Of a stretch of DNA of 64,000 nt, positions 2,952 through 34,232 are shown in pieces. The DNA is from Sphaerolaimus hirsutus. Taxonomy: Eukaryota; Nematoda; Chromadorea; Monhysterida; Sphaerolaimidae. The stretch lies in the NCBI GenBank assembly GCA_964036195.1, contig OZ038452.1:14130704-14194703 (forward strand). Reading direction: 5' to 3'. Under the pieces are notes generated by a model, which did no database searches, was not told where the DNA came from, and was given only the letters and a program-made list of their open reading frames with translations. The stretch's first letter is position 1. Each line of letters begins with the position of its first letter. A program made the position numbers and the translations under genes.

Positions 2952-3145
2952 TATCTATGTGTGGTGAAAAGTCGCACTGCCCATTGGAATTGCAGCACAA
3001 GATATGTTTGCATTCTAATAGTGGATTGGGATGGGGTTGGTGTGGATCATGCAGTGAAGTTGTACAATGAAATAACAGATTCAGTCAGTGAACTTGGAAC
3101 CGATGGTGGTGAGATGCCGATGCGGCAATGTGCACTGAACAGAAA
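2952..3145 (+). CDS. TET exon a: start of conserved Cys-rich/catalytic region
   Basis: The acceptor is TTTGCAG and the exon opens in phase 0; it ends as AA before donor GTTGGT (phase 2). The translation has a VVKSR...VCILIVDWDGV...LYNEITDSV...RQCALNRK pattern. It follows the mammalian TET stretch containing LVRxRAGHxC, an ILxWEG strand, LYxELT and RRCxLNxxR. Length is 64 codons plus two bases. A small TA-type transposon starts only 24 bp past the donor. No further upstream TET exon was recognised in 1-2951. Confidence 0.85.
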
Positions 3146-12100: not shown

Positions 12101-15100
12101 CCTACATCTCTGCTGGGTCTACATTAGGGTTGGTACTAGGGTTGGCCGATGTTTTTTTTAAACGTTTTTTTTTTTTAAACATGACGTCCGAAATGTTGTT
12201 TTTTAAAAAACATTGGCCGAAATTTTTAGTACNNNNNNNNNNNNNNNNNNNNNNNNNNNNNNNNNNNNNNNNNNNNNNNNNNNNNNNNNNNNNNNNNNNN
12301 NNNNNNNNNNNNNNNNNNNNNNNNNNNNNNNNNNNNNNNNNNNNNNNNNNNNNNNNNNNNNNNNNNNNNNNNNNNNNNNNNNNNNNNNNNNNNNNNNNNN
12401 NNNNNNNNNNNNNNNNNNNNNNNNNNNNNNNNGGAGCGAAATTAAAAAAACTTTGTATATTTTGTCCAAGGAAGAAAATTAGTAGTAAAGAAACTTGAGC
12501 AACTATTTTTAAATTTCGCTCCTTGAATTCTCTTGTGTAGAATGATGTATTTAAGCAGAGTCAGTTTTAAAAAAATGCCTGACGATTTTTCTTTCAGACA
12601 GAAGCATACTCTGTGTGAACAGATGTAGCATGAGTAGATAAAGCGATCACAAACACAGCTGATCGTGATCTGCTGTACAAATCAGAACAAATTGAAAATG
12701 TCCTAATCTCATTTCTATATGTAAATTAGCCATTGAAATGGCATTTGGCACTAAGCTAGGACTCCTTTCTTTCATTCAAGCAGTTTTCCAGCCTTGACTG
12801 ACAGAATATAATCATTTAATGAAACGCGTATGGAGCAAGGTGATCACTGCATTTTGGTATATAAAAATGTGTGGGCCGTTTACACAGCCCACATGGCGTT
12901 ACAATGGGGGGTACCCCAATGGGCATTTAGGCGACTCTATGGGCTACTTTTTGTATAGGGTGAAATTCGCTGTAAAGTTGGGTGGGGGCCGCGACAAAAC
13001 TTTTTATAAAAAAATCACAAAGGTGCGGACCGAGGTAAACAGGAGTTGTGTAAAGGTGAGTACAGGTATTTTTTGTCAGACATATTTACTCAGTACCAGG
13101 GTTGGTAAAATCTCATGGAAAAATAAAATTAAAATTAAAAATTTCAACTGAAAAAATGTATAAAAATACAAATTGTGTAAAATTTTAGTAAAATTGTATA
13201 AAAATTCATATTTTTGTTTAAAAAAATCGGTATATCAGTATCATATTTCTATTTGTGCCCAATCCATATGCACAGTGGGAAAAATGCATTCTGTGGTCAA
13301 TTCCACTTGTAAAGCCGACATTACAGCTCAGCGTGATTTTGACATAAAATAACGGCATAAAATGACGTAGTAAAATTTATTACATGAGTGCGGATGATGC
13401 TACAGGTCTACAATTTTTTATGGATAATATATGTATCAATACCTTAATCGTGTTCAATACTGAGTGTTATCAGCAACAGCTAGAGTGAATTGAAAAATTC
13501 AATTTTTTTCATTTTACGTCATCATTTTATGTCGGGGAACTAAATTTACTTTTTTACGTCAATGATTTCATTCAACCATTGACGTAAAATGTAAAGTTAA
13601 GGTATTGATACATATGAGGCGTCAAATTCTAAAAGTCGACAAGTCCAAATTTGGAAAAATTTAGTTAAGCCCCTGAACATGATCTGGGGATGGTCCCTCT
13701 CATTTTTTAAAATTTTCCATTAATTTTTCTACCTCACATTCCCCTATACGACCATGCCAAATTTGACCGTTTTGGGGGAAAATGGAGAAAATTTAGCCAA
13801 GAAGTCGACAAGTCCGCCTAGTTTTTGGGCAAAAAGTCGACAAGTCCACCTTGTGCAGCCTTTTCTGTTGGGACAAAAAAGGCAAGAAATGTGTTAAGTC
13901 CGCTATGGGCAGTGATTTCTTAAAGTCGACAAGTACAAAAATAGCCCATAAGGCAAATTTTTTCAAGCTGGGAACAAAAATGTTTGCAAGTGCAAGAAGT
14001 CGACAAGTCCACTCCCCTGCCCATAAAATTTTTTTGGGCAAGAAGTCGACAAGTCCATGCCTGATTAGAGCCAAAAGTTGACAAGTCCATTTCATTAACG
14101 CAAGTCGACAAGTCCACTTTTGTTTACTGAACCAAAATGACACCATTTTCGTGGAGTTGGCGCCATTTCCATGGTGTTGGCGCCATTTTTATGGAGTGTC
14201 CCTATCAACTCCAAAGTTGCGCCATTTTCATGGAGTGGTGCTATCAACTCCAAAATAGCGCCATTTTCATGGAGTGGTGCTATCGAATCCTCAAATGTAA
14301 AGTAAAGTGTCAAATATAAAGTAAAGTGTCAAATGTAATGTAAAGTGTCAATTCTGTATCCAAATCTTATTTTTGTGTATCCAAATCCTATTTCTGTGTA
14401 TCCAAATCTTATTTTTGTGTATCCAAATATTATTTTTGTGTATCCAAATCTTACTTTTCAAAATAAGATTTGGATACGCAAAATAATATTTGGAGTTGAT
14501 AGCACCACTCCATGAAAATGGCGCCAACACCATGGAAATGCCACTATTTTGGAGTTGATAGCACCACTCCATAAAAATGGCGCCAACACCATGGAAATAA
14601 CGCAACTTTGGAGTCTATAGCACCACTCCATGAAAATCGCACCAACACCATGAAAATGGCGCCAACACAATGGAAATGGGGCTATTTTGGAGTTTAAAGC
14701 ACCACTCCATAAAAATGGTGCCAACGCCATGGAAATGGTGCTACTTTCGAGCCGATAGCACCACTCCATGAAAATGGCGCCAACGCCATGGAAATGGCGC
14801 AACTTTGGAGTTGATAGGGCCACTCCATAAAAATGGCGCCAACGCCATGGAAATGGTGCTATTTTGGAATAAATAGCACCACACCATAAAAATGGCACCA
14901 ATGCCATGGAAATGGCGCTATTTTGGAGTGGATAGCGCAACTCTATAAAAATGGTGCAACTTCCAGGTGCTTTTAAATCAAATGTTGGGCTTGGGACATG
15001 ATTGCAAAAAGTCAACAAGTCCACATGGTTTAAAGCAAGAAGTCGACAAGTCTGAAGCTGTTTGCAGCAAGAAGTCGACAAGTCCACTTTTGTTTACTGG

Positions 15101-18100
15101 ATTTTGCTGCTGATTTCTTGCAAATACCGTATTTCCTTGAATTACTCCCTGGGGGTTTATTTTTTCAGGGTGAAAATTTTGAGAGAAAAATGTGAAAAAT
15201 GCAACAATAACAACCATTTATAAGTTTTTACAGCCTTATATAAGGATGTAAATGGTATAAACGATGTTCTAACATAGTGTTTTGAACGTCTGTTATGCAT
15301 TTCCCGGACCACAAATTCATAGTGCCCATTTTGAGGGGGTGGGGGGGTATTTCGAGGAAATACGGTATCACAATGGCATATTATGGACACCCCATTTTTC
15401 ATATATACATGAGAGCAGGGGTTGAAAATTTAACACTTTATTGTCAACATATGGAACTTAATGTATAGCGTGAGAGAGCCACATTGGACACGCTGCACAG
15501 ACCACAAATTGGATCTGAAACTTTAAATGTGATTTACTGTATTTCCTCGAAATACCCCCCCCCCCCCCCTCAAATGGGCACTATGAATTTGTGGTCCGGG
15601 AAATGCATAACAGACATTCAAAACACTTACTGTGTTACGTTAGAACATCGTTTATACCATCTACATCCTTATATAAGGCTGTAAAAACTTATAAATGGTT
15701 GTTATTGTTGCATTTTTCACGTTTTTCTCTCAAAATTTTCACTCTGAAAAAATAAACCCCCTGGGAGTAATTCGAGGAAATACGGTACTCAAAATAACAT
15801 TTTGTGGACTTGCTGACTTTTAGAATTAGACGCCTCATATTATCCATAAAAAATTGCAGACCTGTATCATCATCCACACTCATGTAATTTATTTTACGGC
15901 GTCATTTTACATCGTCATTTTATGTCAAAATCACGCTGAGCTGTAATGTCGGCTTAAAAGGTGAAGTGAAATGAGAATTTATGAGTAAAAAGTGAATTAA
16001 TTTTACAAGTAAGAAGTTATTAAACCTTTTCACTTCTCAAATGGATTTTTTACTTCTCCACTTGTGGAATTGGCACCTGCACTCGCCATGCTTGCTGGAA
16101 TGCTCAGTGCAAATGGGCCCAGCACACTTCAGTCCTCAGTAGTATCAACTATTGTAACTTTACACTTTGCAGCTAGCTAATCATACCCACTGGTACTGTA
16201 TGCAACTTTTGCAAAGTAATGAAAAAGTTTTGCCACTTTGACGTTTTCATGTTTAGGTCTAATGATAACATTTTTTTGGCCCTGCACTCCAATTTTTTTG
16301 TACAATTTTTGTAAAAAAATTTGTCAAATGTTTTCTTTTTATTTCATTTATGACATTTGAGAATAAAACAAAAAGAAACAAGACATAACATTAAAATTTA
16401 GTGCAATTTTGTTACATTGCAGTAAAATGAATTTTTATAAAACCAACCCTGCACAGTATATCAGTATACATATTTCTTTGTAAACGTATATGTTTTAACA
16501 ACTTCGCAAATTGGAACAAAATCAGCAGCGGTGCAACGTACTGCACAATCCACCAACCAGGTGTGAGGTTTGTCACTACTTATTTTTCAAAACATATCAC
16601 ATTATGTCAATGCAGATTCTAAATATTCTGTGCCCATCTAGCCCGGCAAATGTTGACAATTATGGCCAGTTGCATGTGTTGCCTGCCTATCTCCCAGAAA
16701 GTTACAGTGGCACCGAGAATAGTGGTATTCATATGCTGCCACTCGAGGTCAAGGAGAAATGGATGTTGAGTGAACCATTGCCACCAGTGTCAAAGTCCCG
16801 GTTAGTGGGGCATTAATGGAAAGTCTCAGAAAAAAAATGACAAAAGCAGCTTAGTAGTATATCAAGGCAGTTTATAACATCCCGCTGGCGGGACCAGTCC
16901 TGCTGGCAGGAATATGGTCACACAATGAAAAAAATTCTGAAATTGTTTTTCTCATTATTGAATATAAAAAATTCTGAATGTGTTATACTGTGTGTCTAAG
17001 GTTGTTTGTTAGGTGAAATCATGGTACCACTGGCGGACAGTAGACAACAGTCATGCTACGTGACCAACAGGGTTCATAGAGTGATGAACTCAATTTCATC
17101 CTGCAGTGGAAATCCTATTGTGGCAAAGAAATATCATGACAAAAAATTTGCAAATGACAAAAAAAAACATACAAAAGTGAAAATACACAGAAAATTTACA
17201 AAAAAATCAATTGGGTGACCATACTCCCACCAGTGGGACAGATGCCGCTAGAGGTACACTAAAACTAGCCATAGATGGGAGAACATGGAAAGGTGAAAAT
17301 TTTTAGGCTGAATTTAAGGTGCTTTTATCAATATTCACAGCAGGGGTCTCAAATGGGGTCCCAGCTATCTATCTATCCCGGATGCCGCTCAGCTATCTAT
17401 CTATCCCAGAGGCAAAATTTTGGGTTACTACCCCTAAACCCAACCCAAATTGCCCAGCTATCTACCTATCTGGAGCGATACCCCAATTTTCGCTCAAAAT
17501 CGCTATTTTTCATACCTTTTTTATAGATTTTCACTTCCAAAATCATAGTTCTGGTTCATATTTGCCTATTTTCAGCTATTTTTAGAACTAAATGCTCTTG
17601 TATACCATTTTTGAGCTATTTTCCACCTACTATTAGCGATTTTTCTCCCTTTTCTTCGTCTATACCTTGAAAAAGCCTATATATCGAACCACCACAACCC
17701 CCCCCCCCTCCAAACCCCCCTCCAGAAAAATTTTCAGCTATCTATCCCCCCGGAGGAGCGATTTGCTATCTACCCAACCACTCAGAGGGTCAAAATTCAA
17801 GATACCCCTGATCCAGGGTATAAGTTACACTTGCATATGCCTGAAAGTTTACTGTCATTATACAACATCAAGTGCTTTGTGTGGGATGTATGTGTACTCC
17901 AGCAACTTTACACCATTCATGTGTGGTTCCCGCTGGTAGTGTGCCCATGATATATAATGCATGCAATTTTCATAAAAAGTTGAAAAATCTCTATGCTGTT
18001 TCTATATTATAAAACGTTTATGTACTCACAACTAGGATTGGAAAAAAAACGTTTTTTTTTAACTCGATGTTTTTTTTTAAAAGCTCCCAGATATGACCTA

Positions 18101-21100
18101 GTGTCAACATATATAGGAATATCAGACAGTGGCAATACTCTGTGATGTTAAATATGACCATATAATGGGTGTGGAGCCATGGGATAGCATTATAAGTGGT
18201 GATTTGTGTCAAAAATATCCATTTTTTGTTGACATATTGTTCGTATATCGCCTTATAGTCGAATGTTTGTGACTTCAGGTAAAGTTTGGCATGGAATAGT
18301 GATCAAACAGGGTTATAAAAGGAGGTTGTTACTTTGGGAGTGAAGTTACACACTGTGGAGGTACATGGAAGCATATTACCTCAATATTATATACTACAGC
18401 AACAAATGACGGCTTACTAACCCATGGTAGCACGTAGAAATGGATACTTTGATACTGAAAATGCCACAAAACCAATGAAAACAACCACCAATGTCAATTT
18501 GTGTGCGAAATTGCGCGCTTGCGCGCAAAAAATTTGCAAAATACCTAGTGCTTAGTACTAAAAAATTTGGCCGATGTTTTTAAAAAAAAAACATTTCGGA
18601 CATCATGTTTTTGTTTTTTTTAAACGTTTTTTTTTTTTAAACGTTTTTAAAAAAACATCGGCCAACCCTACTCACAACAATACATTTGTTCACCTTGTAC
18701 AAAAATTCCATGCTTTAATAACCATTGGCATGCTTCCAACATGAGACATAAATCAGTGTGAGTGCACAGTATCAAGTCTGCCAAGTATAATAACAATTCC
18801 ACAATCACACACAGCCAAAAGACTTCTAAAGCGTTGACTGAATCAAGCAGCAAGCCAAAATTGGTTCAGATGGAGGTGAGCAATCGTGCTCAATTGGACT
18901 CACCCAGTGCAGGCGGAATTGCTGTGATGCCGGAAAATGGCACCATTTTCTATGAGGTGGCCCGGCTTGAGGATCATTCAACTACAGCTGTCAAAGTTCC
19001 AAATCAATTACAGCCAAGTAGAATCAGTATTGTTTTTTATCAGCACAAACATTTGTGCTACCCATTGCATGGGAAAGAGAGGTATAAGGCATTGCGGCAG
19101 AAGAAGATTGTGAGTTTTCCATGTTTCCAAATTGTGATCAACTTTCTATGATTGACTTTCTATATGTTCAAACTGGGCCCCTGTCCTGAATCCTAGCAAA
19201 TATCTGGGTTGCAAAACTCCACAATACTAGTCTTAACTGATCCTAATCAGACAAAACCAATAAACACAACAACCAACAGTATGTGAAATTTCATGCTTGC
19301 ATGCAAAAATGCCAAATACTTAGTGCACAATACAAAACTTGTTTGGTGCATGTTGAAAACATTTTTTAAACACTTTTGTAAAAACAAACCACCTGCCATA
19401 CATACATATACACTGCTCTTTGGTTAACGCAATGGCACTGCACCAACAGAGGACCCAGCACCTGTAGGCAACAAACACTGCATGGCAACTGCGTTCAGTG
19501 GGCAACTGCATGTGCTCAATGGGCCACAATCACCCCATGGCAACCGCGGCACACGCAGTGACCGCAGGCGCATGCGCTCGCGCCGGACTGGCACCATTTC
19601 TGCCGCGCAGCTGCCTCACACATTGTCATGCATTGTTCACTGTTCAGATGAACAACTCTGATAAAATTCTTAAAGTATAAGAAAACTAAAAAAATCTATT
19701 CTTTTATTTATTTTTAATTTGTATTTTCTCTGCATTTTTAGGGGGGATATTATATGTCAACATATTATAAACACCTTCCCGATCAAGTCCGGCCCCCCAA
19801 TTTTTTTTTCACTTGTGACATCCTATCTTCAGTTCTAGGGCGCGCCGGAAGCTGAAACGTGGGGGAGATATGGGCACAACCCCCTCTACTTCGCATGAAT
19901 TTGGGGGGTCGCGGCAACCCCTTACAGGGTGGGTCACCCTAAGTGCCTAAATTTTTTTGGCTTTTTTGGTGTCCCACATAGGTCCGGCCCCCACTGATTT
20001 CTGAGCTGTGGGAGGGGTATAAATCTAAAATTTTGGGGATGTGTTACCAACACCCCTCCCCTACTATACACTATTCAAAATGTCAGATTATTGTGAAAAA
20101 TTTCTTAAAAATCTTATTCTCTAAAAAACACCACCCCCCAATAAATGGATGACAAAAAAATTCACGTTTTGGGACTTTTTTGTTATACACTTGAAGAGCT
20201 GGTTTAGGATACTTTAAAGGGAAGGGTTTGATGTTTAAAGTTATGCAAACAACTATACCTCTAAAATGCCTGCATTGCAAAATTTACTTGGGGGGAATTT
20301 TATGACATCATAATGACGTCATTGCAGGAACAAAATTTACACCTTGAAATTCCCCCCAAGTAAATTTTGCAATGCAGGCATTTTAGAGGTATGGTTGTTT
20401 ACATAACTTTAAACATCAAACCTTGCCCTTTAAAGTATCCTAAACCAGCTCTTCAAGTGTATAACAAAAAAGTTCCTAAACGTGAATTTTTTTGTCATCC
20501 ATTTATTGGGGGTGGTGTTTTTTTAGAGAATAAGTGAAATTTTTCACAATAATCTGACATTTTTGAATAGTGTATAGTAGGGGAGGGGTGTTGGTAACAC
20601 ATCCCCAAAATTTTAGATTTTTACCCCTCACACAGCTCAGAAATCAGTGGGGGCCGGACCTGTGTGGGACACCAAAAAAGCCAAAAAAATTTTTGGCACT
20701 TTGGGCGACCCACCCTGTAAGGGGTCACCGCGACCCCCCAAATTCATGCGAAGTAGAGGGGGGTTGCGCCCATATCTCCCCCACGTTTTAGCTTCCTGCG
20801 CGCCCTAGAACTGAAGATAGGATGTCACAAGTGAAATCAAAAATGGGGGGCTGGACTTGATCGGGAAGGTGTTTATTTCACTTTTTACTGTGAACAACAA
20901 TGAAAAATGTCACTGTTCATTCACCCCCTTCACATAAGGCAGAAATGGCGCCAGTCAGGCGCAAGCGCATGCGTCGCTCGCGCATTGGCGGGGCAATGGC
21001 GTCGGCTTGGCGGGCGCCTGTGGTCACTGCGTGTGCCGCGGTTGCCATGTGGTGATTGTGGCTCACTGAGCGCACGCAGTTGCACATTGAGCGCAGTTGC

Positions 21101-24100
21101 CATGTGGTGTTTGTTGCCACACGGTTATTCGCCCTACAGAGGGGGCTATGGGCCCACACACGCTAGTTGACATCGCAAATTCGCGTCAACTCAATGTCAA
21201 CTAAATAACACAGAAAAAATTTTTAAATGCATTAGACTTAACGGAAACAATGAAAATTATGTGGCATGATGTAAAATTGACTATGCTCCATCAGATAGGA
21301 AAGTTGAAATCACATAATTCACTAGAATTTAGTTGACACTAATTCAGTTGACATCCAGCGTGTGTGGCGCCTATGGCACTACGCCTAGTGTTCAAATCGG
21401 ATTGAGTTTTCGGGATTGGGATTGGGGTCACGGGATCGGGATCGGGCTTGGCATTTTTTCTTCGGATCGGGATTATGTTCTTGGGATTGAGATTTTGGCG
21501 ACAAATTTGGTCTCACAATCATGGTCTACCAGGGGGCGGACTATATGAAGGGTGTGCTTCTAAAAGTACCGATCTACAAATTTTTCAAATTTGAGTTGGG
21601 ACCATTTTTGGGGTCCCCATAAAAATGCGCTTCAAAAATATATATAATATGTGGGGGTGCGAAATTCAATTTTGAGATATGGGGGGGTTGTAAAAAGCAA
21701 AAAAATCGCAAAATACAGTTTTTGAAATTATAATAGTACCGATCTACAAGCTTTTTCAGCTTTTGTGTCTTTAAAAGTACCAATCTACACACTTTTTTCA
21801 AAATTGTTCTTTTAAATGTACTGATCTGCACATTATTTTTTGGGCTTCTAAAAGTACCGATGTCAGATCGGTGTCTGGTTGCACAAAAACTCATTTTGTG
21901 CTTTTTTATTATGGGTAAAAGTACCGATCTACAGCTTTCTGATTTTGTGCTTTAAAAAATACCGATCTACACGCTATTACCTATTTGTTCCTTTAAAATG
22001 TACTGTACTACAAAAATACAATTCCCTAAATTTTATATAGCTAGTGTTGTGTAGGGTTGGCCGATGTTTTTTTTAAAACGTTTTTTTATATAAAAAAACG
22101 TTGTTTTTTTTAAAAAAAACATGACGTCCGAAATGTTTTGTTTTTTTTAAAAAACATTGACCAAAATTTTTAGTACTAAGCACTAGGTATTTTGCAAAAT
22201 TTTTGTGCGCAAGCGCGCAATTTCACACACAAATTGACATTGGTGGTTGTTTTCATTGGTTTTGTGGCATTTTTAGTATCAAAGTATCCATTTCTATGTG
22301 CTACCATGGGTTAATAAGCCGTCATATGTTGCTGTACTATATACTATTGAGGTAATGTGCTTCCATGTACCTCAACAGTGTGTAACTTCACTCCCAAAGT
22401 AACAACCTCCTTTTATAACCTTGTTTGATCACTATTCCGTGCCAAACTTTACCTGAAGTCAGGAACATTTGACTATAAGGCGATATACGAACGATATGTC
22501 GATGAAAAATGGATATTTTTGACACAAATCACCACTTATAATGCTATCCCATGGCTCCACAGCCATTATATGGTCATATATAACATCACAGAGTATTGCC
22601 ACTGTCTGATATACCTATATATGTTGACACAAGGTCATATCTGGGAGCTTTTAAAAAAACGTTTTTTATTATAAAATTTTTTTTTTTTTTTAAACATCGA
22701 CTTAAAAAAAACGTTTTTTTTTCCAACCCTAGTTATGGTTATAATCAATGATTATACCCATGCATGTGGATACCCAACGATATGGCTGAAATACCCTTAC
22801 CCAAAATTCCAATACCCATGTATGGGTATTGCATGCTCCAAACTTTCAATTGTTATCGTTATCTCAAAATCGATTTTTTTGTAGATCGGTACATTTAGAA
22901 GCACACCCTTCATATATGGGTCTGGCGTGCCCATTTTTAAAGTTGGGCCCATGAAAAAGAGAAATGGTCATTAGGTGGAGCCAGCTGTAGGAGCCGCACT
23001 ATGGCGCTGTTTGCGTTGGTGCTGGTACTAGGGTTCAAACGGGATTGACTTTTCGGGATCGGGATCGGGATCGGGATTCACTTTTTGAGATTTCGGGATC
23101 GGGATCGGGATCGGGATTGGGGTTTCGGGATCGGGATCGGGATCGGGATTGGTTTTTTGAGATTTCGGGATCGGGATCGGGATCGGGATTGGCCGGGATT
23201 GGGGTCACGGGATCGGGATCGGGATTGGGATAGGCATTTTTCCGGGATCGGGATTGGGTTCTAGGGATAGAGATTTCGGCCATTTTTCTGGCATTCACAG
23301 TTGTTCATAAAGGTCTCAAAACACTGTTGGATGCCAGAAAAGTGGCATAAAATTGACGCTGGGGGTTTGCATCCACTTTTTTGCATGCAAAAACGTCATT
23401 ATTTCACTTTTTATAATTTCCACTAATTTTTCCGGGATCGGGATCCCGGACTTGGGAGTTTCTCGGGATCGGGATCGGGATTTGAATATTTTCGGGATCG
23501 GGATCGGGATCGGGATTGGTATTTTTGAGATTTCGGGATCGGGATCGGGATCGGGATTGGGGTTTCGGGATCGGGATCGGGATCGGGACTGGTAAATCCC
23601 GGAATTTTACGGGATCCGGGATCGGGATCGGGATCCCGTTTGAACCCTAGCTGGTACTCATGTATACTAGATATACACATTTGAGGGATAGCCATGGGAT
23701 AGCTTTATAAGTGGTTATTTATGTCAAAAACTTATGTCAGCTTCTTACGTATATCGCCATTTGTCAAATGTTCGTGACTTCAAGTGAAGTTGGGCATGGA
23801 ATAGTGCTTAAATAATCTTATAAGAGCAGGCTAATACATTGACAGTGATGTATTACACTGTACAACTATGTGGGGGCAGATTTGCTGGATATTGTATACT
23901 ACACTCACATATCACAGCTTATTATGACACAATAGCGTGAACAAATGGAAGCTTTTACACTAAAAATGCCTCAAAACAAATGAAAACCACCAGCAGTAGT
24001 AATATGTATGTGAAATTGCACGCTTGCATGCAAAAAAATGCAAAATACCCAGTGCTTAGTACTAAAAAATTTGGCTGCCGTTTTTAAAAAAAACAACGAT

Positions 24101-27100
24101 TTCGATGCTTGCGTTTTTTTAAAAACGTTGTTTTTTGAAACGAACGTTTGAAAAAAAAACGCCAGCCATCCGTAGTCCTAACAGTTGAATATGAAAAATA
24201 GATAACTGTGCAGTGGGAAATGCGCGCTTGTGCACAAAATTTTGGCAAACTCCCTACAAAATCACTGTATAAACGTGCCATCTCCGTCTCCTAGATGGGG
24301 ATCGGGATTGGGATTTGAAACATTTCGGGATTGGGATTGAGATTTTAAGATTTCGTGATCGGGACCACAAAATCCCGAAATTTTTGGGATTCAGTATCGG
24401 GATCCCCTTTAAACCCTAGCTATGACCATGAATGATGCCAGGGGACATGGCACCATGGCGCTATGCCTATGAATGGTAAATACCAGAGTCCCAAAACCTA
24501 GTCTTGTTTGAACCCAAACGGTCTACTATTGTTTTTATCAGGCCGAGCAGCAGGTCGCTGGTGCAACTGAAAGTGGGCTGAATAGAAAGCGTCGCAAAAG
24601 TTCATTAGATGGAGAAAAGCCAGAAGTGGTTGGCAAAAAGTTGAAGGACATTCAACGTAATCAGGTGAGTAAACTTTCATGTCTATTTAGGTCAGTGGTT
24701 TAGTAGATTTGGGCCCCTGCGGGTTTTCAAATAGACACTGCACACAAAAAACAGAGGGTCGCTACAAAACGAAATTTGCTAGCCACGAAAACGCACTTTA
24801 GCCAGTGATTTAAAAGAGGCGAGCCATGTTGTCCGATTTTTTAAAATCTTATTTTTAAAAATCACTTGTCAACCCTGAGGTAGTCACATAAAATTTTATC
24901 GGTAACGGCAGTATAAATACAAACGGACATATCCAAAAATTGTTATGGACAGTTGCCAACTTCTCGTAAGGTCCCTCCCCGCAAAACTCATGATTTAGGG
25001 ACATCCTTCGTGCTGGAAGCTGTGCTGTACAGTGGATATTTTTCGTTGCGTATTGTTTATGTATTTAACTGTGCACCTAGCACGCGTGGTTCACGCTGGA
25101 ATCATACCAACCATATTTAACGCATGCAACTTTCATAAAAAGACAAAAGAGTTCACTGCCGCTATTTTTTTAAATATTCGTAGAATACGTTCACCGTTCA
25201 CACATCACACCAATGAATTTGCAATCGTTTCACAAAATTTGCATGCTTAAATTATAATTGGCACGCTTCCAACGTGAGACATAAATAAGTGCTAGTGCGG
25301 AGTATCAAGTCCGCCAAGAATATGTATTTTCAATTCCGCAGAAAGTCCTGCGGAGCAAAGTGTGGGCGGCATTTTCCGAGGTGAAAGTGATCGATAAGAG
25401 CAGGGGTCACAAGCTAACACAGTGTGATCTGTGTGGCACACAAATCGAAATTTTAAAGTCCAGCACCTGGCCACTGAGGGGACATTTGGATAAGTATCAT
25501 CCGGTTGAGTGGGGGGATATTTCGCGTGGTGAAACGGCTGTGAAACGGAGACCGGGGACCTCCTGCGGATTAGATCCTGAAGGGGTTAGTAGATTGGTAA
25601 ATTTTGCTGCCCACAAGCACTCATATACGTACATTTGGTGCCCTAATGCATACTTGAAACGGGTTTAGTAGGGGGAGGGTAAACTTGAAATCAGCGGTTT
25701 TGTAGATTTGGACCCCCGCGGGGGTTCATTTAGATAGTAAACAGGTTGTGAGTTCACATTGTAAGTGTACATTATTGCATCAAAATGAATTGCTCCATCG
25801 GAGTCATTTCAATGTAGAACCCTATAGAATTGTTGTTCTGCTGCCAGTTCCGCAAATTGAGAAGTGAGAAGTAAAATGGCAAAAGCGAAGTAAAATGGCA
25901 AAAGTGAAGTGAAATGGCAAGTAAATTGGCAAAAGCGAAGTAAAAAATACATAAATAAAAAGTGATTTCTTTTCGCTTTTGCCATTTTACTTCGCAATTC
26001 ACTTCGCTTTTGATATTTTACTTCACACTTCACTTCGCTTTTGATTATGCCTTTCTTACAAAATGTATAATCGTTGATAATACCACACCGCGTCGCGGAA
26101 AACATTCAGTGCGGCAGGGTTTATCATTTTATAACATTTCGAAAGAATAGCCATCGAAATGAGAAGTTGTTGGCACTTTGCCAATGTTAACTTTTGCTTT
26201 TAGCGGTGTTTCCGCCGACACTCACATTGAGCACGTCTACACGAACAATGCGCAACAACATGCCTCAACAAAATGCAACATACGCAGCCGGACACGCCGC
26301 CGCCTACGCCGATCTTTGCTGGGACGCCCGGCTGCTCCAGCAGCGACGCGAGGCCAATCGAGGTAGTCGCGACGCCCAAGCGAATCGGCTCAGTTACCGT
26401 GTCCAAACCGGAAAGGGGCATCTATTTTATGGCGCGTAGGAAGAGTAGGCGGGGCGTGGTCCGCTCTCTCGGCTTGCTCGTCAGGTCAGTGCTGGGGGTG
26501 GGCAACGGGTAAAATACAATCGATTTGACGCCAGGGGTCTCCAAGAGGGAGGGGGTGCCCCCCCCCCAAATCCGCCAGCTATTTATCAGTTCCGAACCAC
26601 AAAGTTAAGCTACTATCCCTTGAGCCACCTGAAATCCATCTGCTATCAATCTATTTATGTGGAGCAAATTTTGAGCGATTTTTCCTTAATTTTTTAAGTC
26701 GCTAAATTTTGCTCCGTTTTGAAAAATTTTGCTTTCAAAATGGCTATTTTCGGCTGTATGGTTTTATGCCTATTTGAACAATTTTAACCTATTTGGCTAC
26801 ATTTAACCAACCTAGTTTAGCGATTTTTCCCCTTTCTGCTTCTACATCTTGAAAAAGCCTATATATTTTGCCCCCGCGAGCCCTCCCCCCAGAAAAATGT
26901 TCAGCTATCTATCCCTCCGGAGGAATGATTTGCTATCCATCCAGCCCCCTAAAGGGTTAAAATCTTGGAGTCCCCTGCTTGATGCAATACTATATTCTAC
27001 CACTTTCTACTTTCCTTGATACAAATAAATACTTATGCTTGAAATTTGAATTTGATGGTGCGAATTCCAGCGTCTTTAAGCATGTTTCCAGTGATTCCAG

Positions 27101-30100
27101 CGCCGTACCCTAGCACTAATTCTCTACACAGAATTGTATGTATAGCGTAATTTCCGTAGACATTAAGTAAATATTATCTTATTCGACGCCTTAAAGTATA
27201 CTTAAATATCATTTAAAGTATACTTAAAGTATAGTATACTTAAATATCATTTGACCTTGTTTGAAACTGGTTTTGTAAGTGTGAGTAGGAACCGTTGGCT
27301 GGGCATCAATTGGTCCGAAAAATTGGCCCACAGTCCGAAAAAATTGCAATTTAGTAGGTGCCGCGCGAATCCCCGACCGCTTTACCCTTTTACCAATTGA
27401 TGTTTAGCCAATGGTAAATATCAGAAAAAGGTAAAAGGAACTGACAAAAAAATGAATCCAAAAATCCGGTACCCACGTACCCTGTATCTAATGGAAAAGC
27501 TGTGTCGGGAGCTTTATCGCCACTGCCAATAATTGGAAGTTGGCCAGGTGCACGTGGGGGTCCGCGCCCGCCGCGAGAAGCTTCACAGTTTGCAACGCTC
27601 ATTTGTTCGCTCATGGTGCACAGTTATTAGCTTGTCTGCGGTGAAGTGACAGTGTGTGTGACAGTATACAGTCATACATGTGTTCAAATCCTGAAAGACA
27701 CTTGACTAAATTTATTTTATTTTAATTACAGTGAAAAATGTCACGTACAGAGAAAAACCGGTTTGAAAACGATTTTGGCTGTTTTTCAACGAAGTTCACG
27801 TTGCCAAATATTGTCTAAGTTTGCGTAAGTTAGATTATTGTTGTACTCCAGTTACTTGATAATGAACACTCATAATTCACATTGGCAGCGTGCTAACCGT
27901 AATACGCTCACGCGATTGCTGTTAAGTGATAAATAATCTTTGCATTGTAGCAGCTGTCGTGATTTTGTCGATATAATTTTGTCACATGTTTGAGCGGTAG
28001 TTGGCATGCTGCCAACGTGACTCAAGCAGTGTCAAATTGCCGCAGGCGCACCGCACTGAATTTTTGAGTTGTGTCCGAACGATTTTTGTATGCGGAAATA
28101 AGACATCTACCGAAAGCAAACGAGTTGTGCCCACGCGAATTGCTTAAAGGATACGGACTTGAAACTTTTTGGTGGGCCTGTTTTTCATCCAAAAATCGCA
28201 ATTTCTGAAGATAGGTATGATCGCCAAAGCGGAACTAAAAGACGTTCGGACGCGTGACTCTAAATTTCAGTGTGCGGTGCGTAGCAATGTAAGAAGCGCC
28301 AACAGTTTGGCGCGAAATGTCAAAAGCGCCACGGCGCTTCTCTGACTCCCAGCGCCAGGCGCCACAGGAGACAAGCGCCATGCCCATGACGCTTTCTAAG
28401 GTTGCGGCGCCGAGCTTTCTGAGGATTCGGCCACTTTCATCATTTCGAAATTGAAATATTCCCAACTGCAGGCATCGCCGCGTGGCCGGTCGCAGCGGCC
28501 GAAAGTGGTCGCGTGCTTACGTCCGTTTGTGGAAAAGGCGCGGTCATTTGTGCTTCCGTCGGGAGGCTCGACGGAGTGAGGAAAATTCCGAGTTTTCGGC
28601 GACCGTCCATGTCGAATTTGATAGTGCATCTGGCGCCGACGCGTCTAGTTTGCGGTTGGTGGTGGGGCAAATGTTTGGGGTTCAAATGGGATGATATGAG
28701 GGGAGAGAAAATGCTCGAATTGCCGAGGGTTTTTCTATTTGATGTTCAGCCGTGGCGATGATGTGTATCAGAGTGGCGGCACAGCGAACTTTCTTGAGTT
28801 AAACAGGGGACACGCCAGGTCCGGCAGCCAAAAGGTGTGTCGGTTCACTCCTATCACTCCGGTTCTAGGGGGGGGGGGGGGGTAAAAATTTTAAATTTTG
28901 GGGGAATATACTCTAAACGCCCCTACAACTATACACTGCATGGGGGCGTATCCAGGATTTTTGAGCGGGGGGCTGCTTGTTTACGGAGGCCGGCGAACGG
29001 GGGGGGGGGGGCTCAGCCCCCCCCCCCTAAAATTTTCACCTATACAGTGACAGAATGGCGCCATGGCGCCGGCGCCATTCGTAGGCGCCACGCCAGGAAC
29101 CGCGTAAATATACATTCATATACAGCGACAGGCACAGAATTGTGCAGATTTTCAGAGATTTATGTCTACATGGCTGACCCGCTGACAATACCATGTGTGC
29201 GGACGAAATTGCGTGCTTGCGCGCAAAATTTTTAGGGGCACAGCGAAAAATATGTACTAAAAGTAGCATTTTCCGGGAATTTTTAGGTCTCACACCGGGA
29301 ACGGGGGGGGGCTGCAGCCCCCCCCCCGCCCCCCCTGGATACGTCCTTGCCGGCGACCCACCTGAGTTCAACTTAAAATCGAAATTTGATCTGGAACTTG
29401 TGTATGGGTGTAAAAGATACACAAGTACCAGATAAAATTTTGATTTTCAATTTGTTCTTTAATACACACCTCTTACAGCGGTATTTTTGCTGTCCAGTGC
29501 CGAACCTGAACAGTGAATTTTCAAAAAAAATCAGTTTATTTTTGCAGCGGTCCACTCTCAGGGGGGTCGCCAGGGGGTTCAATCTTCCGTGTAAAGTATT
29601 GGGGGTGTCGCGTACACCCCCTCCAAATTTCGATCAATTCCACCCAACATTTCAAGTTTGGCAGCCGGAAAACACGGGGTACCGAACCTCGCGCGGACAG
29701 CGGTTTTAAAAAAAACATTCTTGTATACGGCGACCCACACTCAGGTGGGTCGCCGGGGCCCCCTCTGCAGTGTATAGTCGAAAGGGGGTTTAGAGTATAT
29801 TTCCCCAAAATTTCAAATTTTTACCTTGGCTGCCGGACCTGGCGTGTCCCCTGTTTATAATAAATACATAAATAAATATCTCGGGAACCGCGCGCACTAT
29901 GAGGTTTCTGGAACGCCTCAATGATTTCACCAGTTGCAATCACAACAGTTGCATGACATTTCACATTCAAAATCGTCAGTAGTGATGTTAAAAGCGTCAG
30001 GACTTTTAAAAGCGGTTAAAAGCGGCAGCCCCCCCCCCCCCCGCCCCCCCCCTGGATACGTCCTTGACTCCAGATAGATAGATAGCTGAGCGATTGGGGG

Positions 30101-32043
30101 GGGGGTCTTTGGGGGTAGTAGCCAAAAATTTTGCCTCGGGATAGATAGATAGCTGAGCGGCCTCGGGGATAGATAGATAGCTGGCGGATTTGGGGGGGCA
30201 GCCCTAGGAGACCCCTGGCCAACCCTACACATCAGTAGGGTTGGCCGATGTTTTTTTTTAAACGTTTTTTTTTTTAAACATGACGTCTGAAATGTTTTTT
30301 TTTTTTTTAAAACATCGGCCGAAATTTTTAGTACTAAGCACTGGGTATTTTGCAAAATTTTTGCGCGCAAGCGTGCAAATTTCACGCACAAATTGATATT
30401 GGTGGTTGTTTTCATTGGTTTTGTGGCATTTTTAGTATCAAAGTATCCATTTCTATGTGCTACCATGGGTGAATAAGCCGACATATGTTGCTGTAATATA
30501 TAATATTGAGGTAATGTGCTTCCATGTACCTCCACAGTGTGTAACTTCACTCCCAAAGTAACAACCTCCTTTGATAACCTTGTTTGATCACCATTCCGTG
30601 CCAAACTTTACCTGATGTCATGAACATTCGACTATAAGGCGATATACGAACGATATGTCGACGAAAAATGGATATTTTTGACACAAATCACCACTTATAA
30701 TGCTATCCCATGGCTCCACAGACATTAAATGGTCATATATAACATCACAGAGTATTGCCACTGTCTGATATACCTATATATGTTGACACTAGGTCATATC
30801 TGGGAGCTTTTAAAAAAAAACGTTTTTTATTTAAAAAAAAACATCGAGTTGAAAAAAAACGTTTTTTTTCCAACCCTACACATCACTACCATCATATTGG
30901 TCTTTTGCGAAAGCTTTTGCCGTTTTTGGGTTGTCTGGCATTGGATCATCGTGGAGTTTCAACCGGGGTGTATAAGCTGGAATTTATTCAATCGTAAAAT
31001 TTTACCATGGATTTGATCTCTTCAAACTGGATACAGTAATAATCTATCTCTCAATAATGTCCACAACTCAACATGCACAGTCCACTGTTTCCGGAGTTTT
31101 CGATTTTTCAATCAGATTTCAATGTAAAATAAGTTGGAAACATAAAGTTTGAGACATTTTTAATTATTCACTTTTATTCAATCAATTGGCGGTAAATCTT
31201 TATTCTTGAATTTTATTTCAATCTGTTATTTCGGTTCAAATACCCCGACTAAAACCTCATCATCGAGGACAATCTAATGGGAGACAGGAAAAACTTTTGC
31301 AAAACCAAGGCAATATTTCACTGTATTGGCCAATTTTCATCAGCCCACACAACAACGCAAGGACGTATCCAGCGGGGCGGGCGGGGGGGGGGGGGTTGCA
31401 GCCCCCCCCCTTCCCGGGGTGAGATCTAAAAAGTCCCGGAAAATGCAACTTGTCCTGCATATTTTTCCATGTTTCTCAAAATTTTTGCGCGCAAGCGCGC
31501 AATTTCATCCCCATTCATTGTATTTTCAGCGGACCGGTCCCTGTAAACCAATATCCTTCGAAATAAACACATTTTTGGGACTTTCGCTGTATATGCATGC
31601 ATATTTACATACATAAAAAGCGGTTCCTGGTGCTGGTGCCAACACCAATAGCGCTATGGCGTGGCGCCTTTGTATGGCGCTAGTGCCAAAACGCCTTTCC
31701 GTCCCTATATAGGGAAAAATTTTAGGGGGCCCCCCCCCCCGTTCGCCGGCCGCCGTAAACAAGCAGCCCCCCCCCCGCTCAAAAATCCTGGATACGTCCC
31801 TGCAACAACGTGACGTATTTATCACATTGCACAACTAAACAACCCCCACACAGCCGTCGCGGCCGCAGCCGTTTCATCTGCTGCGCCATGTGCCGCAGGA
31901 GCATCCCGAAGGAGCTGCTGCTCAAGCACACGGCGAGCCACGGCGGCGGCGCGGCGCGGCCGCACTCGTGCACCAAGTGCGGCATTTGCCACTACGCCAC
32001 CGAGGAGGCGCTTTTCGTTCATTTGGAGAGTTGTGTGGGTTGA
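2952..32043 (+). CDS. TET-family methylcytosine dioxygenase with appended zinc fingers (gene model, 5' incomplete)
   Basis: This is a nuclear Fe(II)/2-oxoglutarate dioxygenase that oxidises 5-methylcytosine in DNA. Exons seen in order are 2952-3145, 7119-7305, 11065-11192, 16616-16800, 18815-19109, 24542-24664, 25342-25584, about 26204-26484, possibly 28472-28654, and 31854-32043. The first five align, from my knowledge of the family, with the mammalian TET Cys-rich region and the C-terminal half of the catalytic fold. Phases agree at every visible junction except across the assembly gap. Upstream exons lie left of position 1. The exon for the HxD Fe-binding motif is not visible between 11192 and 16616. 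The last exons encode a BED finger and two further fingers, not part of the TETs I know. Their membership in this gene is inferred from phase, strand and the lack of a new start. They could belong to a separate downstream gene. Confidence 0.8.
3170..3418. mobile_element. ACCGTATTTCCTCGAA MITE (TA-type)
   Basis: Ends TACTGTATTTCCTC and GAGGAAATACGGTA; the interior contains C-runs and a stretch shared with 15125-15366 and 15535-15786. About 249 bp, starting 24 bp after a TET donor. Confidence 0.8.
3532..3890. mobile_element. CGTATCCAG-family MITE, partial
   Basis: Same internal order as 1602-2033 (G-run, C-run, AAAAAGTGACCGGAAAATGC, TATATTTACATACA, GGCGCCATGG cluster, TAGCTAAAATTTTAGGG). The right end runs into a half copy of the TAGGCAACAAAC foldback at about 3927-4100. 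Confidence 0.7.
4265..4400. repeat. GCATTTTGGCCTATCC short tandem array
   Basis: About five diverged units of CGCATTTTGGCCTATYC. Related to the ATCCCGCA units at 5812-6110. Confidence 0.6.
5812..5950. repeat. inverted tandem array of CCCATCCCGCA
   Basis: Forward units CCCATCCCGCAAATGTG are followed by reverse units TGCGGGATGGGC, with the axis near 5890. It has the same architecture as the array at 780-980 but a different unit. Confidence 0.7.
7119..7305 (+). CDS. TET exon b: Cys-rich zinc-binding region
   Basis: Acceptor CTCACAG is followed by one base completing the split codon of the previous exon. The frame then reads RTCCCQGIDPTNRG, SYSVGC and CCKYSR, closely matching the RTCxCQGxDPxxCGxSFSFGC signature of TET proteins. 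It ends in phase 0 at donor GTGAGT. A Cys that I remember as conserved in mammalian TETs (in DPxxCG) is Arg here, while an extra Cys appears in the TCCC cluster. The longer open frame overlapping on the same strand is out of frame with the neighbouring exons and is not the gene. Confidence 0.92.
7466..8293. mobile_element. GGGATC-repeat elements, partial/nested copies
   Basis: Two left ends (AGGGTTCAAACGGGATTGAC near 7469 and TTCAAACGGGATTGAC near 7717), each followed by (CGGGATCGGGATT)-type hexamer repeats and a shared unique tail. Frames across them read DRDRDW or PIPIPKSQ and are not genes. Confidence 0.7.
8294..9130. mobile_element. TAGGGTTCAAAC element with GGGATC interior, 8-bp TSD
   Basis: Ends TAGGGTTCAAACGGG and TTTGAACCCTA. 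Perfect duplication CCCAGGAC at 8286-8293 and 9131-9138. 837 bp. Confidence 0.88.
9234..10260. mobile_element. TAGGCAACAAAC foldback element, copy 1
   Basis: Two arms of about 300 bp in inverted orientation. Landmarks are GGCAACAAAC, CAACTGCG, GGTTGCCATGCGG and TGTTCACNGTTC. They surround a second, unrelated palindrome at about 9549-10018. Copy 2 is at 19465-21120 and a half copy at 3927-4100. Confidence 0.75.
9549..10018. repeat. palindrome nested in foldback copy 1
   Basis: Arms of about 180 bp: TTTCACACTGTGAAACTGTG is mirrored by CAGTTTCACAGTGTGAA, and ACTAGATCACAC by GTGTGATCTAGT around a loop near 9730-9840. Confidence 0.75.
11065..11192 (+). CDS. TET exon c: helical segment before the HxD exon
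   Basis: The acceptor is CATTTTCAG with phase 0 at both that junction and the preceding donor. The translation includes VINTLAGTMAEHLASAAP and ends EDAQMCR. It corresponds to the TET segment (NLxSLATxLAPxYKxxAP ... ECR) that sits immediately before RLGxxEGRPFSGVTACLDFCAHxHRD. The exon ends as CG before donor GTGAGT (phase 2), so the next exon must begin with one base that completes Arg. No such exon is visible before the gap. Confidence 0.88.
11384..12004. mobile_element. TAGGGATGG hAT-like MITE, 8-bp TSD
   Basis: Ends TAGGGATGG and CCATCCCTA. Perfect duplication TTGTAAAC at 11376-11383 and 12005-12012. The interior contains AAAAAACG-rich ends and a conserved core (AACCAATGAAAACAACCA, GCGCAAAAAA) shared with the TAGGGTTGG family. 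621 bp. Confidence 0.9.
12137..12231. mobile_element. TAGGGTTGGCC hAT-like MITE, left end cut by gap
   Basis: Matches the first 95 bp of the copies at 22052 and 30236, then enters the N run. The remainder is not found after the gap. Confidence 0.8.
12232..12432. other. assembly gap (N run)
   Basis: 201 undetermined bases. The left flank (from 12137) is the first 95 bp of a TAGGGTTGGCC-type transposon whose full copies here are 638-680 bp. The right flank does not continue that element. The true gap is therefore probably longer than 201 bp, unless the transposon copy is itself truncated. It lies where the HxD exon of the TET gene should be. Confidence 0.95.
13431..13613. mobile_element. small MITE inserted in left arm of composite foldback
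   Basis: Inverted ends ATGTATCAATACCTTA / TAAGGTATTGATACAT. The right arm of the host element at about 15836 lacks this insertion and shows the unoccupied sequence, so the insertion postdates the arms. Confidence 0.75.
13635..14118. repeat. AAGTCGACAAGTCC dispersed tandem units
   Basis: About eight copies of AAGTCGACAAGTCC(A) at irregular 30-165 bp spacing, all in one orientation. Three more copies lie at 15005-15090. Confidence 0.8.
14131..14290. repeat. GGCGCCATTTTCATGGAGT array, forward arm
   Basis: About 2.5 copies of the unit found in the opposite orientation at 14485-14960. Together they form an inverted pair around a spacer with TATCCAAATCTTATTTT repeats (14352-14485). Confidence 0.75.
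14485..14960. repeat. tandem array, about 60-bp unit
   Basis: About seven to eight units of GATAGCACCACTCCATRAAA, ATGGCGCCAACRCCATGGAA, ATGGYGCTATTTTGGAGTT. Units differ by scattered substitutions. The long minus frame across the array is a by-product. Confidence 0.85.
15125..15366. mobile_element. ACCGTATTTCCTCGAA MITE
   Basis: Ends TACCGTATTTCCTTGAATTA and TTTCGAGGAAATACGGTA. Interior homologous to 3170-3418 in the opposite orientation. Confidence 0.8.
15535..15786. mobile_element. ACCGTATTTCCTCGAA MITE
   Basis: Ends TACTGTATTTCCTCGAAATA and ATTCGAGGAAATACGGTA, same interior as 3170-3418. Inside the composite foldback. Confidence 0.8.
16616..16800 (+). CDS. TET exon: QLHVLP segment of the catalytic domain
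   Basis: The translation contains GQLHVLPAY, SGIHMLPLEVKEKW and PLPPVSKSR. This corresponds to the TET segment DEQLHVLPLYxxSDxDEFGS...SGAIxVL that follows the HxD motif. It ends as CG before donor GTTAGT (phase 2), and the next exon supplies C, making Arg. The 5' boundary (acceptor CAATGCAG) is less certain because the residues before QLHVLP do not obviously match the family. Confidence 0.82.
17341..17810. mobile_element. CAGGGGTCTC element
   Basis: Ends CAGGGGTCTCAAA and TTCAAGATACCCCTG; AGCTATCTATC motifs and AT-rich interior as in 2064-2537. 470 bp. Confidence 0.8.
17893..18789. mobile_element. TGTACTCCAG foldback repeat (interrupted)
   Basis: A repeat of about 260 bp with left end TGTACTCCAG..ACTTTACACC and right end GCACAGTATCAAGTCTGCCA. 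It is split by the hAT-like element at 18033-18670. Other copies are at about 25052-25320, 40463-40707 and 41919-42178. All carry a subterminal inverted pair (TTCACGTTGGAAACGTGCCA / TTGGCACGTTTCCAACGTGA), best preserved at 41950-42125. Confidence 0.75.
18033..18670. mobile_element. TAGGATTGG hAT-like MITE, 8-bp TSD
   Basis: Ends TAGGATTGG and CCAACCCTA; perfect duplication CTCACAAC (18025-18032 and 18671-18678). 638 bp. Inserted in the foldback repeat just upstream of a TET exon. Confidence 0.92.
18815..19109 (+). CDS. TET exon: C-terminal catalytic core (Fe-binding His, 2-oxoglutarate-binding Arg)
   Basis: Acceptor CACACACAG is followed by C completing the previous split codon, and the exon ends in phase 0 at GTGAGT. 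The translation has GGIAVMPENGTIFYEVARLE, then DHSTTAVKVPN, then PSRISIVFYQHKHL. This is the hallmark C-terminal TET block. The His (codon at 18975) matches the second Fe-binding His and the Arg (19020) matches the 2-oxoglutarate-binding Arg in xxRISLVFYQHK. Both are retained, which argues against decay of this part. The exon begins about 25 bp after the end of a foldback repeat. Confidence 0.93.
19465..21120. mobile_element. TAGGCAACAAAC foldback element, copy 2
   Basis: Same outer arms as 9234-10260 but with a different, larger palindrome (19768-20876) in the centre. Confidence 0.75.
19768..20876. repeat. 1.1-kb near-perfect palindrome
   Basis: The left end ATAAACACCTTCCCGATCAA is mirrored by TTGATCGGGAAGGTGTTTAT at the right. 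Arms of about 520 bp run to a short centre near 20300-20335 (GACATCATAATGACGTCATT). Arms differ at only a few scattered positions by eye. Confidence 0.88.
21150..21371. mobile_element. GGCNCCACACACGCTAGTTGACA foldback MITE
   Basis: Ends GGGCCCACACACGCTAGTTG and AGTTGACATCCAGCGTGTGT. Related to 39681-39841, the partial copy near 37480-37600, and 61426-61796. Confidence 0.7.
21546..22913. mobile_element. AAGTACCGATCTACA element (interrupted)
   Basis: The outer ends GAAGGGTGTGCTTCTAAAAG and CTAGAAG-type TTTAGAAGCACACCCTTC are inverted. The interior has seven or so TACCGATCTACA units at about 45-165 bp spacing. The hAT-like element 22052-22731 is inserted in it. Confidence 0.7.
22052..22731. mobile_element. 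TAGGGTTGGCC hAT-like MITE
   Basis: Ends TAGGGTTGGCCGATG and CCAACCCTA, interior homologous to 18033-18670 in reverse orientation. 680 bp. No clean target duplication is visible at the flanks. Confidence 0.85.
23029..23649. mobile_element. TAGGGTTCAAAC element with GGGATC interior, 8-bp TSD
   Basis: Ends TAGGGTTCAAACGGG and CCCGTTTGAACCCTA; perfect duplication GCTGGTAC (23021-23028 and 23650-23657). 621 bp; both ends are (CGGGATCGGGAT) hexamer arrays. Confidence 0.93.
23690..24175. mobile_element. decayed hAT-like MITE relative
   Basis: Contains the core shared with 11384-12004 and 62426-63131 (GGGATAGC, CATGGAATAGTG, AAATGAAAACCACCA, TAGTACTAAAAAATTTGG) and ends near GCCAGCCATCC. Outer ends are not clean. 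Confidence 0.6.
24542..24664 (+). CDS. TET tail exon, basic low-complexity
   Basis: It is bounded by a good acceptor (TTTTTATCAG) and donor (CAG before GTGAGT), phase 0 on both sides, and is exactly 41 codons. The translation starts AEQQVAGATESGLNRKRRKS and continues with a Lys-rich stretch resembling a nuclear localisation signal. No domain is recognised. In mammals too the conserved TET core is followed by a basic, poorly conserved tail, so it fits as a TET tail. Confidence 0.7.
25052..25320. mobile_element. TGTACTCCAG foldback repeat copy
   Basis: Matches the interrupted copy at 17893-18789, including GGTTCACGCTGGAA, GGCACGCTTCCAACGTGAGA and AGTATCAAGTCCGCCAAG. Ends about 20 bp before the acceptor of the BED-finger exon. 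Confidence 0.7.
25342..25584 (+). CDS. BED-type zinc finger exon (inferred C-terminal extension of the TET gene)
   Basis: Acceptor AATTCCGCAG, phase 0. The translation begins KVLRSKVWAAFSEV and has CDLCG, then TWPLRGHLDKYHP. That is the BED-finger layout: aromatic SKVWxxF start, CxxC, then HxxxxH. BED fingers bind DNA and are common in hAT transposases and host genes derived from them. No transposase catalytic sequence follows. Two donors preserve the frame (GTTAGT at 25585, GTAAAT at 25597), and a third at about 25528 would change phase. Joining to the TET exons upstream is inferred from phase 0/0 compatibility. Confidence 0.72.
25860..26045. repeat. AAGTAAAATGGCAAAAGCG inverted tandem array
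   Basis: Forward units GAAGTAAAATGGCAAAAGCG to about 25945 are followed by reverse units CGCTTTTGCCATTTTACTTC to 26045, another hairpin-forming array. Confidence 0.7.
26204..26484 (+). CDS. GC-rich probable coding exon, frame unresolved
   Basis: There is a strong acceptor (CTTTTGCTTTTAG) and a good donor (AG before GTCAGT). All three + frames stay open over long parts. One reads PDTPPPTPIFAGTPG... and runs through to the donor in phase 2, matching the phase of the zinc-finger exon at 31854. It needs a weaker acceptor near 26287, because a stop lies at 26228. Another frame (NNMPQQNATYAAGHAAAYAD...) uses the strong acceptor but stops at 26439. GC content is well above the flanks. No known domain was recognised. 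Confidence 0.4.
26532..26977. mobile_element. CAGGGGTCTCCAAG element
   Basis: Ends CAGGGGTCTCCAAG and CTTGGAGTCCCCTG. 446 bp, same internal motifs as 2064-2537. Confidence 0.8.
28060..28290. repeat. interspersed repeat shared with 57840-58090
   Basis: Shares ordered blocks with 57840-58090: GCGGAAATAAGA, CGCGAATTGCTTAAAGGA, TCCAAAAATCGCAATTTNTG, AAATTTCAGTGTGCGGTGCG. No ends defined. Confidence 0.6.
28472..28654 (+). CDS. possible cassette exon, phase 2 to phase 2
   Basis: This GC-rich segment has acceptor CAACTGCAG and donor CG before GTTGGT. It is open in the frame compatible with a phase-2 exon before it and the phase-2 zinc-finger exon after it. Length is 183 bp, a multiple of three. 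The reading is strongly basic (RSGRKWSRAYVRLWKRRG...) and matches no family I recognise. A second frame is also open, so this may instead be GC-rich non-coding sequence. Confidence 0.25.
28802..29855. mobile_element. AACAGGGGACACGCCAGG element (TA-type)
   Basis: Inverted ends AACAGGGGACACGCCAGGTC and GACCTGGCGTGTCCCCTGTT, flanked by TA on both sides. A CGTATCCAG-family element occupies about 28939-29345 within it. 1054 bp; no transposase frame recognised. Confidence 0.8.
30236..30878. mobile_element. TAGGGTTGGCC hAT-like MITE, 8-bp TSD (7/8)
   Basis: Ends TAGGGTTGGCCGATG and CCAACCCTA; flanks CACATCAG and CACATCAC. 643 bp. Confidence 0.88.
31358..31802. mobile_element. CGTATCCAG-family MITE, 8-bp TSD
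   Basis: Ends CAAGGACGTATCCAG and CTGGATACGTCCCTG; perfect duplication CAACAACG (31350-31357 and 31803-31810). 445 bp; right end 52 bp before the zinc-finger exon. Confidence 0.9.
31854..32043 (+). CDS. terminal exon with C2H2 and C2HC zinc fingers
   Basis: Acceptor CCCCACACAG, one base completing a phase-2 codon, then an open frame to TGA at 32041. The first finger reads FICCAMCRRSIPKELLLKHT ending in H-x3-H. The second reads CTKCGICHYATEEALFVHLE, then C, i.e. C-x2-C...H-x3-C. The segment is GC-rich against AT-rich flanks. It is probably the last exon, with 3' UTR after 32043. A transposon (31358-31802) lies 52 bp upstream of the acceptor. Whether this belongs with the TET gene or a separate zinc-finger gene is not settled. 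Confidence 0.7.
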
Positions 32044-33901: not shown

Positions 33902-34232
33902 TACCGTATTACCTCGAATTACCCCCTTGAATTAACCCCCCTCGAAATACCCCCCTCATGTATGGGATGTACATGATGTATTTATTAGTGCTAATTTGCA
34001 TCGCAGTTACACATAGACTAGTTTGTGTAGCTATCTACGTTTTTATGTCCAAATATATACTGTTTGGACACATTTATTACCTGTTTCGGGTACGCAAATG
34101 CCTACTATTTACTGCGATGTTTACGAAAATTTCTGACTAATTATTTAATCCCCCCACGAATTAACCCCCCCCCCCTCAAATTTTGCTGGCGAAATAGTAA
34201 ACCCCATGGGGGTATTTCGAGGTAATACGGTA
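33902..34232. mobile_element. ACCGTATTACCTCGAA MITE
   Basis: Ends TACCGTATTACCTCGAATTA and ATTTCGAGGTAATACGGTA. About 331 bp. Same end type as 3170-3418 but a different interior. Confidence 0.8.

Follow-up and report, generated by a model that had tools for sequence, protein, structure and literature searches.

A TET dioxygenase gene in the nematode Sphaerolaimus hirsutus that probably continues into a C-terminal BED-type zinc finger exon

We propose that a TET dioxygenase gene of the nematode Sphaerolaimus hirsutus probably continues beyond its catalytic core into a basic linker exon and then into an exon for a C-terminal BED-type zinc finger, ending in or just past the latter, with the zinc-finger exons farther downstream forming a separate gene. 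Judged from sequence, a TET of this kind is probably a variant not seen before. The window, by which we mean the whole 64,000-nucleotide stretch that was analysed (contig OZ038452.1, positions 14,130,704 to 14,194,703 of the forward strand), contains nine exon-like + strand stretches that can be joined, here called A, B, C, E, F, G, H, I and J. All introns of this model have GT/AG ends and its phases are consistent; it is one exon short in the middle.

Results

The catalytic core of the TET gene

The TET gene traverses the window on the + strand to at least position 19109. Its core is made up of the following features, where P0001 to P0005 denote five retrieved TET proteins:

2952..3145, + strand: exon A, N-terminal part of the catalytic domain (tblastn to the TET2 catalytic domain, E 1e-8; splice ends and phase)
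7119..7305, + strand: exon B, with the cysteine-rich RTCCCQGIDP (tblastn to TET2, E 2e-8; in frame with A)
11065..11192, + strand: exon C, continuing B in frame (aligned to the corresponding stretch of P0005 and P0004)
12233..12432, no strand: 200 consecutive N in the intron between C and E, a gap at the expected place of the HxD exon (D) that the model lacks
16642..16800, + strand: exon E, with the QLHVLP stretch also present in P0002, P0003 and P0005 (phase fits C if one exon is missing)
18815..19109, + strand: exon F, C-lobe of the oxygenase fold (Pfam Tet_JBP, TET2 structures; tblastn E 2e-14)

Exons A, B and F match TETs directly, and C and E slot between them by alignment. The cysteine-rich, TET-specific part is present in A and B, its most N-terminal portion lying outside the window, and F holds the RIS-VFYQHK block within the C-lobe of the double-stranded beta-helix. 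The conserved TET block that an initial annotation of this DNA had placed at F is borne out by Pfam Tet_JBP (PF12851; E 1.6e-7, 31.1 bits against a curated cut-off of 34.9 that this fragment does not reach) and by solved TET2 chains (E 6e-14). The alignment with TET2 extends over the C-terminal His-Thr-Thr and Arg-Ile-Ser stretches, which we take to have roles in binding iron and 2-oxoglutarate. The end of C and the start of E are both in phase 2, so the model lacks one exon (D) here, whose length must be a multiple of three. Searches of the readable part of the window did not turn up the HxD iron-binding exon, and we infer that it sits in the 200-N gap of the C-E intron; N runs of 200 often stand for gaps of unknown size. 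With that exon in place, the core is predicted to oxidise 5-methylcytosine. Within 16642-19109 the core has a short insert, with about 70 residues from QLHVLP to GGIA, compared with about 340 from QLHVLP to GG[IV]A in P0003.

A basic linker exon and a BED-type zinc finger exon

Beyond F lie two further exon-like stretches, together with a possible end signal:

24542..24664, + strand: exon G, basic linker, phase 0/0, without an in-frame ATG (acceptor at the 99.1 percentile; no donor of the model is stronger)
25342..25596, + strand: exon H, BED-type zinc finger, phase 0/0 (zf-BED E 0.001; acceptor at the 97.0 percentile; alternative donor at 25584)
25954..25959, + strand: AATAAA, a possible poly(A) signal should H be the final exon, weak because such hexamers are common here

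The exons G, H, I and J of the initial annotation are all open and bounded by GT/AG, and their phases agree: 0/0 for F/G, G/H and (from the acceptor at 26288) H/I, and 2/2 for I/J. Within the model, the two best acceptors are those of G and H and the best donor is that of G, as scored with matrices that are not specific to this species; the donor of H is middling (91.8 percentile, or 94.1 at 25584), and the frame of unspliced H stays open to a stop at 25666-25668. At the splice thresholds of G and H, no other stop-free phase-0 stretch of 100-400 nt was found in four flanking regions (19109-24500, 24700-25330, 26500-31800 and 32100-40600), the threshold being a strict one: of the nine model exons, the seven besides G and H, among them known TET exons, have acceptors that fail it too. 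Stop-free intron windows reach the codon-usage score of G in 3.4% of 1120 cases, of H in 6.1% of 197, of I in none of 408 and of J in none of 441, in a test that is weak, since a table trained without the TET gives known TET exons only -0.12 to 0.12.

Neither G nor H, nor the open frame preceding each, contains an in-frame ATG. Within the F-G intron, which is 5.4 kb long and 76% repeated elsewhere in the window, just one ATG is followed in frame by a phase-0 donor scoring 0.5 or more, a solitary codon at 24473 that lies 69 bases upstream of G. G and H therefore need an upstream coding exon, and F is their natural partner, because they have no ATG of their own and the F-G intron offers no rival start. 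Alignments to the retrieved TETs run beyond the F/G junction by 24 residues for P0003, 8 for P0004, 4 for P0005, 3 for P0002 and 0 for P0001; those that cross it may weakly back G as a TET exon.

The BED finger claimed for H was recovered. Its layout is SKVWAAF, then CDLC, then LRGHLDKYH, with the aromatic positions and the C-x2-C and H-x-H ligands all present, and Pfam zf-BED (PF02892) spans its full profile on H, positions 1-44 of 44 (E 0.001; 19.5 bits, 1.1 under the cut-off of 20.6). The longer open frame of H gives E 0.0025, and zf-BED was unlisted in a Pfam scan of the whole 254-residue joined tail. A BED-like pattern, composed after exon H had been seen, matches a single site across all six frames of the window and nothing in 150 dinucleotide shuffles. 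Single-sequence structure modelling of H gave a poor result (mean pLDDT 42), the best solved structure near H by sequence has an E of only 0.18, and NCBIfam gave no match for H or for I-J.

Repeats and neighbouring genes in the window

The hAT-type MITEs of the initial annotation are present: seven elements with four types of terminal repeat have 7 or 8 of 8 flanking bases matching, flanking pairs having been counted only from 6 of 8 matching bases up. One of them, at 31358-31802, has an 8-bp target duplication (CAACAACG) and ends about 50 bases before exon J. Three GGGATC-rich elements (23029-23649, 59445-59944 and 8294-9130) have TAGGGTTCAAA ends and 8-bp flanking duplications, and are tandem arrays inside what seem to be hAT-type MITEs. 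One short repeat has four + strand copies (17904-18789, 25074-25322, 40488-40709 and 41937-42183), two of which stop some 20-25 bases short of the F and H acceptors. Positions 19467-21118 of the F-G intron form a large foldback whose arms are 90-98% complementary in pieces.

Downstream, a cuticlin-type gene occupies 40.8-43.7 kb (CUT_N E 4.8e-6, CUT_C E 6.6e-20), a kind of gene that hints at a moulting animal such as a nematode. A SPOC domain at 54905-55213 on the - strand (E 4.8e-9), with RRM- and RS-like exons farther along that strand by reading, suggests a SPEN/RBM15-like gene. Transporter-like exons (SLC1-SLC5) read as SLC22-like and range in GC from 0.38 to 0.69; Pfam gave no match in the four ORFs scanned. 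Rfam and tRNA scans yielded nothing at threshold, and a promoter and terminator scan of a 100-base stretch was disregarded, its patterns being bacterial.

A CpG-depleted domain ends just before exon G

We expressed CpG as a share of CpG+TpG+CpA, with GGGATC-type repeats left out. A single change-point falls at 24079, with 0.140 to its left and 0.253 to its right and a gain of 108 log units, against a largest gain of 26.9 in 200 block shuffles; positions 23925-24900 lie within 3 log units of it and 23328-26204 within 8. A second change-point after 24079 brings weak gains, 4.2 (to 34 kb) and 8.9 (to 64 kb). The share is 0.141 in the TET body and 0.147 in the F-G intron, then 0.208 in G, 0.232 in the G-H intron and 0.245 in H, with 0.239 at 32-40 kb and 0.250 at 40-64 kb. 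The depleted domain thus stops just before G, and the values of G, H and the G-H intron come close to that of the remaining window, in which the cuticlin-like and SPOC-domain genes are undepleted.

The depletion over 1-24079 is possibly a trace of gene-body methylation over the TET gene. If so, the TET unit reaches at least as far as the edge of G, which argues against an end at F; the trace does not cover H. As evidence of the extent of the gene, the boundary near 24.1 kb is suggestive, not decisive. According to one review, gene methylation is not compelling in the methylated nematodes (PMC9246332), a statement that matters here because of the cuticlin-like neighbour in the window.

Where the TET transcript ends

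We consider it unlikely that the TET ends at F or G, with H in no functional TET transcript and being either an exon that is not used or a piece of some other gene whose start was not seen. The CpG depletion does stop at about 24.1 kb, before H; an AATAAA at 19259 lies about 100 bases beyond the stop reached by reading through F; and P0001 terminates about a dozen residues beyond its core. Poly(A) hexamers (seven AATAAA and three ATTAAA over 18-34 kb) are too frequent to decide ends. Several points speak against a TET ending at F or G: H has no in-frame ATG and needs an upstream exon, and the nearest exon-like stretch, G, likewise lacks one; the donor of G and the acceptor of H are strong and match in phase; and the F-G intron keeps the CpG depletion of the gene for 5 kb beyond F. 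We therefore favour a transcript in which F is spliced to G and G to H, and which would encode one protein made up of the TET core, a basic linker and a BED finger.

The initial annotation had carried this transcript through two more exons:

26273..26484, + strand: exon I, spliced from 26288 in the initial model, or opening the coding sequence of a separate gene from an ATG at 26273
31854..32043, + strand: exon J, two C2H2/C2HC-like finger motifs and a stop (GC3 0.84; I/J phase 2/2; probably goes with I)

A single transcript A-J, giving a TET-BED protein with two more fingers, has all its phases in agreement, including 0/0 for H/I and 2/2 for I/J, and the donor of I is good. Composition can also shift within a gene, as the GC range of the SLC1-SLC5 exon-like cluster indicates if that is one gene. 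We nonetheless rate this longer form as unlikely. The acceptor of I at 26288 is the poorest of the nine (53rd percentile), and the acceptor at 26204, which scores above it, runs into the stop at 26228 after eight codons when joined to H in phase 0. The composition of I and J is also unlike that of A-H: GC is 0.64-0.66, GC3 in the model frame reaches 0.77 (I) and 0.84 (J) as against 0.39-0.60 in A-H, and the CpG shares of I and J are 0.485 and 0.444. Furthermore, the frame of I has its own ATG at 26273, behind the in-frame stop at 26228, from which a 133-residue protein with two finger-like motifs can be read. Given the GC-richness and high GC3, the poor acceptor and this ATG behind a stop, I-J is more likely a separate small zinc-finger gene beginning near 26.2 kb. 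The statement that no new start-like exon separates the tail from the TET accordingly holds for G and H and fails for I; and the single transcript through the whole tail finds support as TET-G-H, on splice signals, phase, the lack of an alternative start and the CpG depletion, with I-J probably outside it despite fitting phases.

The two further fingers assigned to J are present as motifs by reading, whereas Pfam zf-C2H2 gives J an E of only 3.2. On the joined tail, CEP104_ZnF reaches 20.9 bits against a cut-off of 27.4. I and J together show weak similarity to a GLI-Kruppel finger structure (HKR3; E 0.0017, best single stretch 0.052), and a model of the J region folds as beta-beta-alpha twice at a poor mean pLDDT of 58.7.

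Discussion

One protein search gave a single match at E<=0.001 among 7992 scored candidates, the Dinothrombium tinctorium TET (P0001), and an X-padded query from the end of C to most of J gave four matches at E<=1 among 5882; the G-J tail found no relative at E<=10 among 1281 candidates, in searches that rely on shared words and length limits and so cannot prove absence. No TET with a BED finger is described in the titles and abstract openings listed by our searches of the open-access PMC literature.

According to a survey, ZBED factors are hAT-derived (PMC10027918). The initial annotation suggested that the finger had been captured from a hAT transposase, and more broadly one might suppose that the TET took a hAT-transposase BED finger at its C-terminus, with perhaps two more fingers, and so, in a genome that is methylated and rich in MITEs, aims 5-methylcytosine oxidation at repeats derived from hAT elements or at specific sites of another kind. 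We regard this as doubtful. The capture drew no backing from our data: no relative of the tail was found, and none of ten ORFs scanned at 26-40 kb has a transposase or hAT dimerisation domain. If, as predicted, the finger binds DNA, it may help to place the oxidase, and given the MITEs in the window it is conceivable that it is aimed at hAT ends.

An annelid methylome study (PMC11292947) notes that many invertebrate TETs lack CXXC, which might alter their specificity. How such CXXC-less TETs find their sites is unsettled, and a TET-BED protein would bear on this question. If the proposed protein is real, nature would offer an example of targeted methylcytosine oxidation by a TET that has its own sequence-specific finger, and its targets could be found by mapping the binding sites of the finger. 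If the finger did come from a hAT transposase, part of a transposon would have been recruited to the DNA methylation machinery.

In other TETs, placing on DNA is the work of a CXXC domain at the N-terminus or of a partner protein; the CXXC-guided forms are TET1, TET3, or TET2 with a separate CXXC partner. If the TET-BED protein holds, it is like these in joining an oxidase to a zinc-binding, DNA-binding part (both kinds of binding being predicted here); they differ in that theirs is an N-terminal CXXC and the one here a C-terminal BED, the 5' part of this gene preceding position 1 of the window. Exons A, B and F share the catalytic domain with animal TETs at large (PF12851), for example human TET2 and the invertebrate TETs that lack CXXC. 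P0002 and P0003 also have long C-terminal tails, so a C-terminal extension is not in itself new. What would set the present gene apart from them is a BED-type finger exon after the core: PF12851 is the sole Pfam domain listed for each of the five retrieved TETs, and a BED domain is listed in none of them. Finally, exon H has in common with the BED fingers of hAT transposases and ZBED proteins (PF02892) the W..F, C..C, H-x4-H layout and a full-length profile match, the difference being that here the finger follows an oxygenase.
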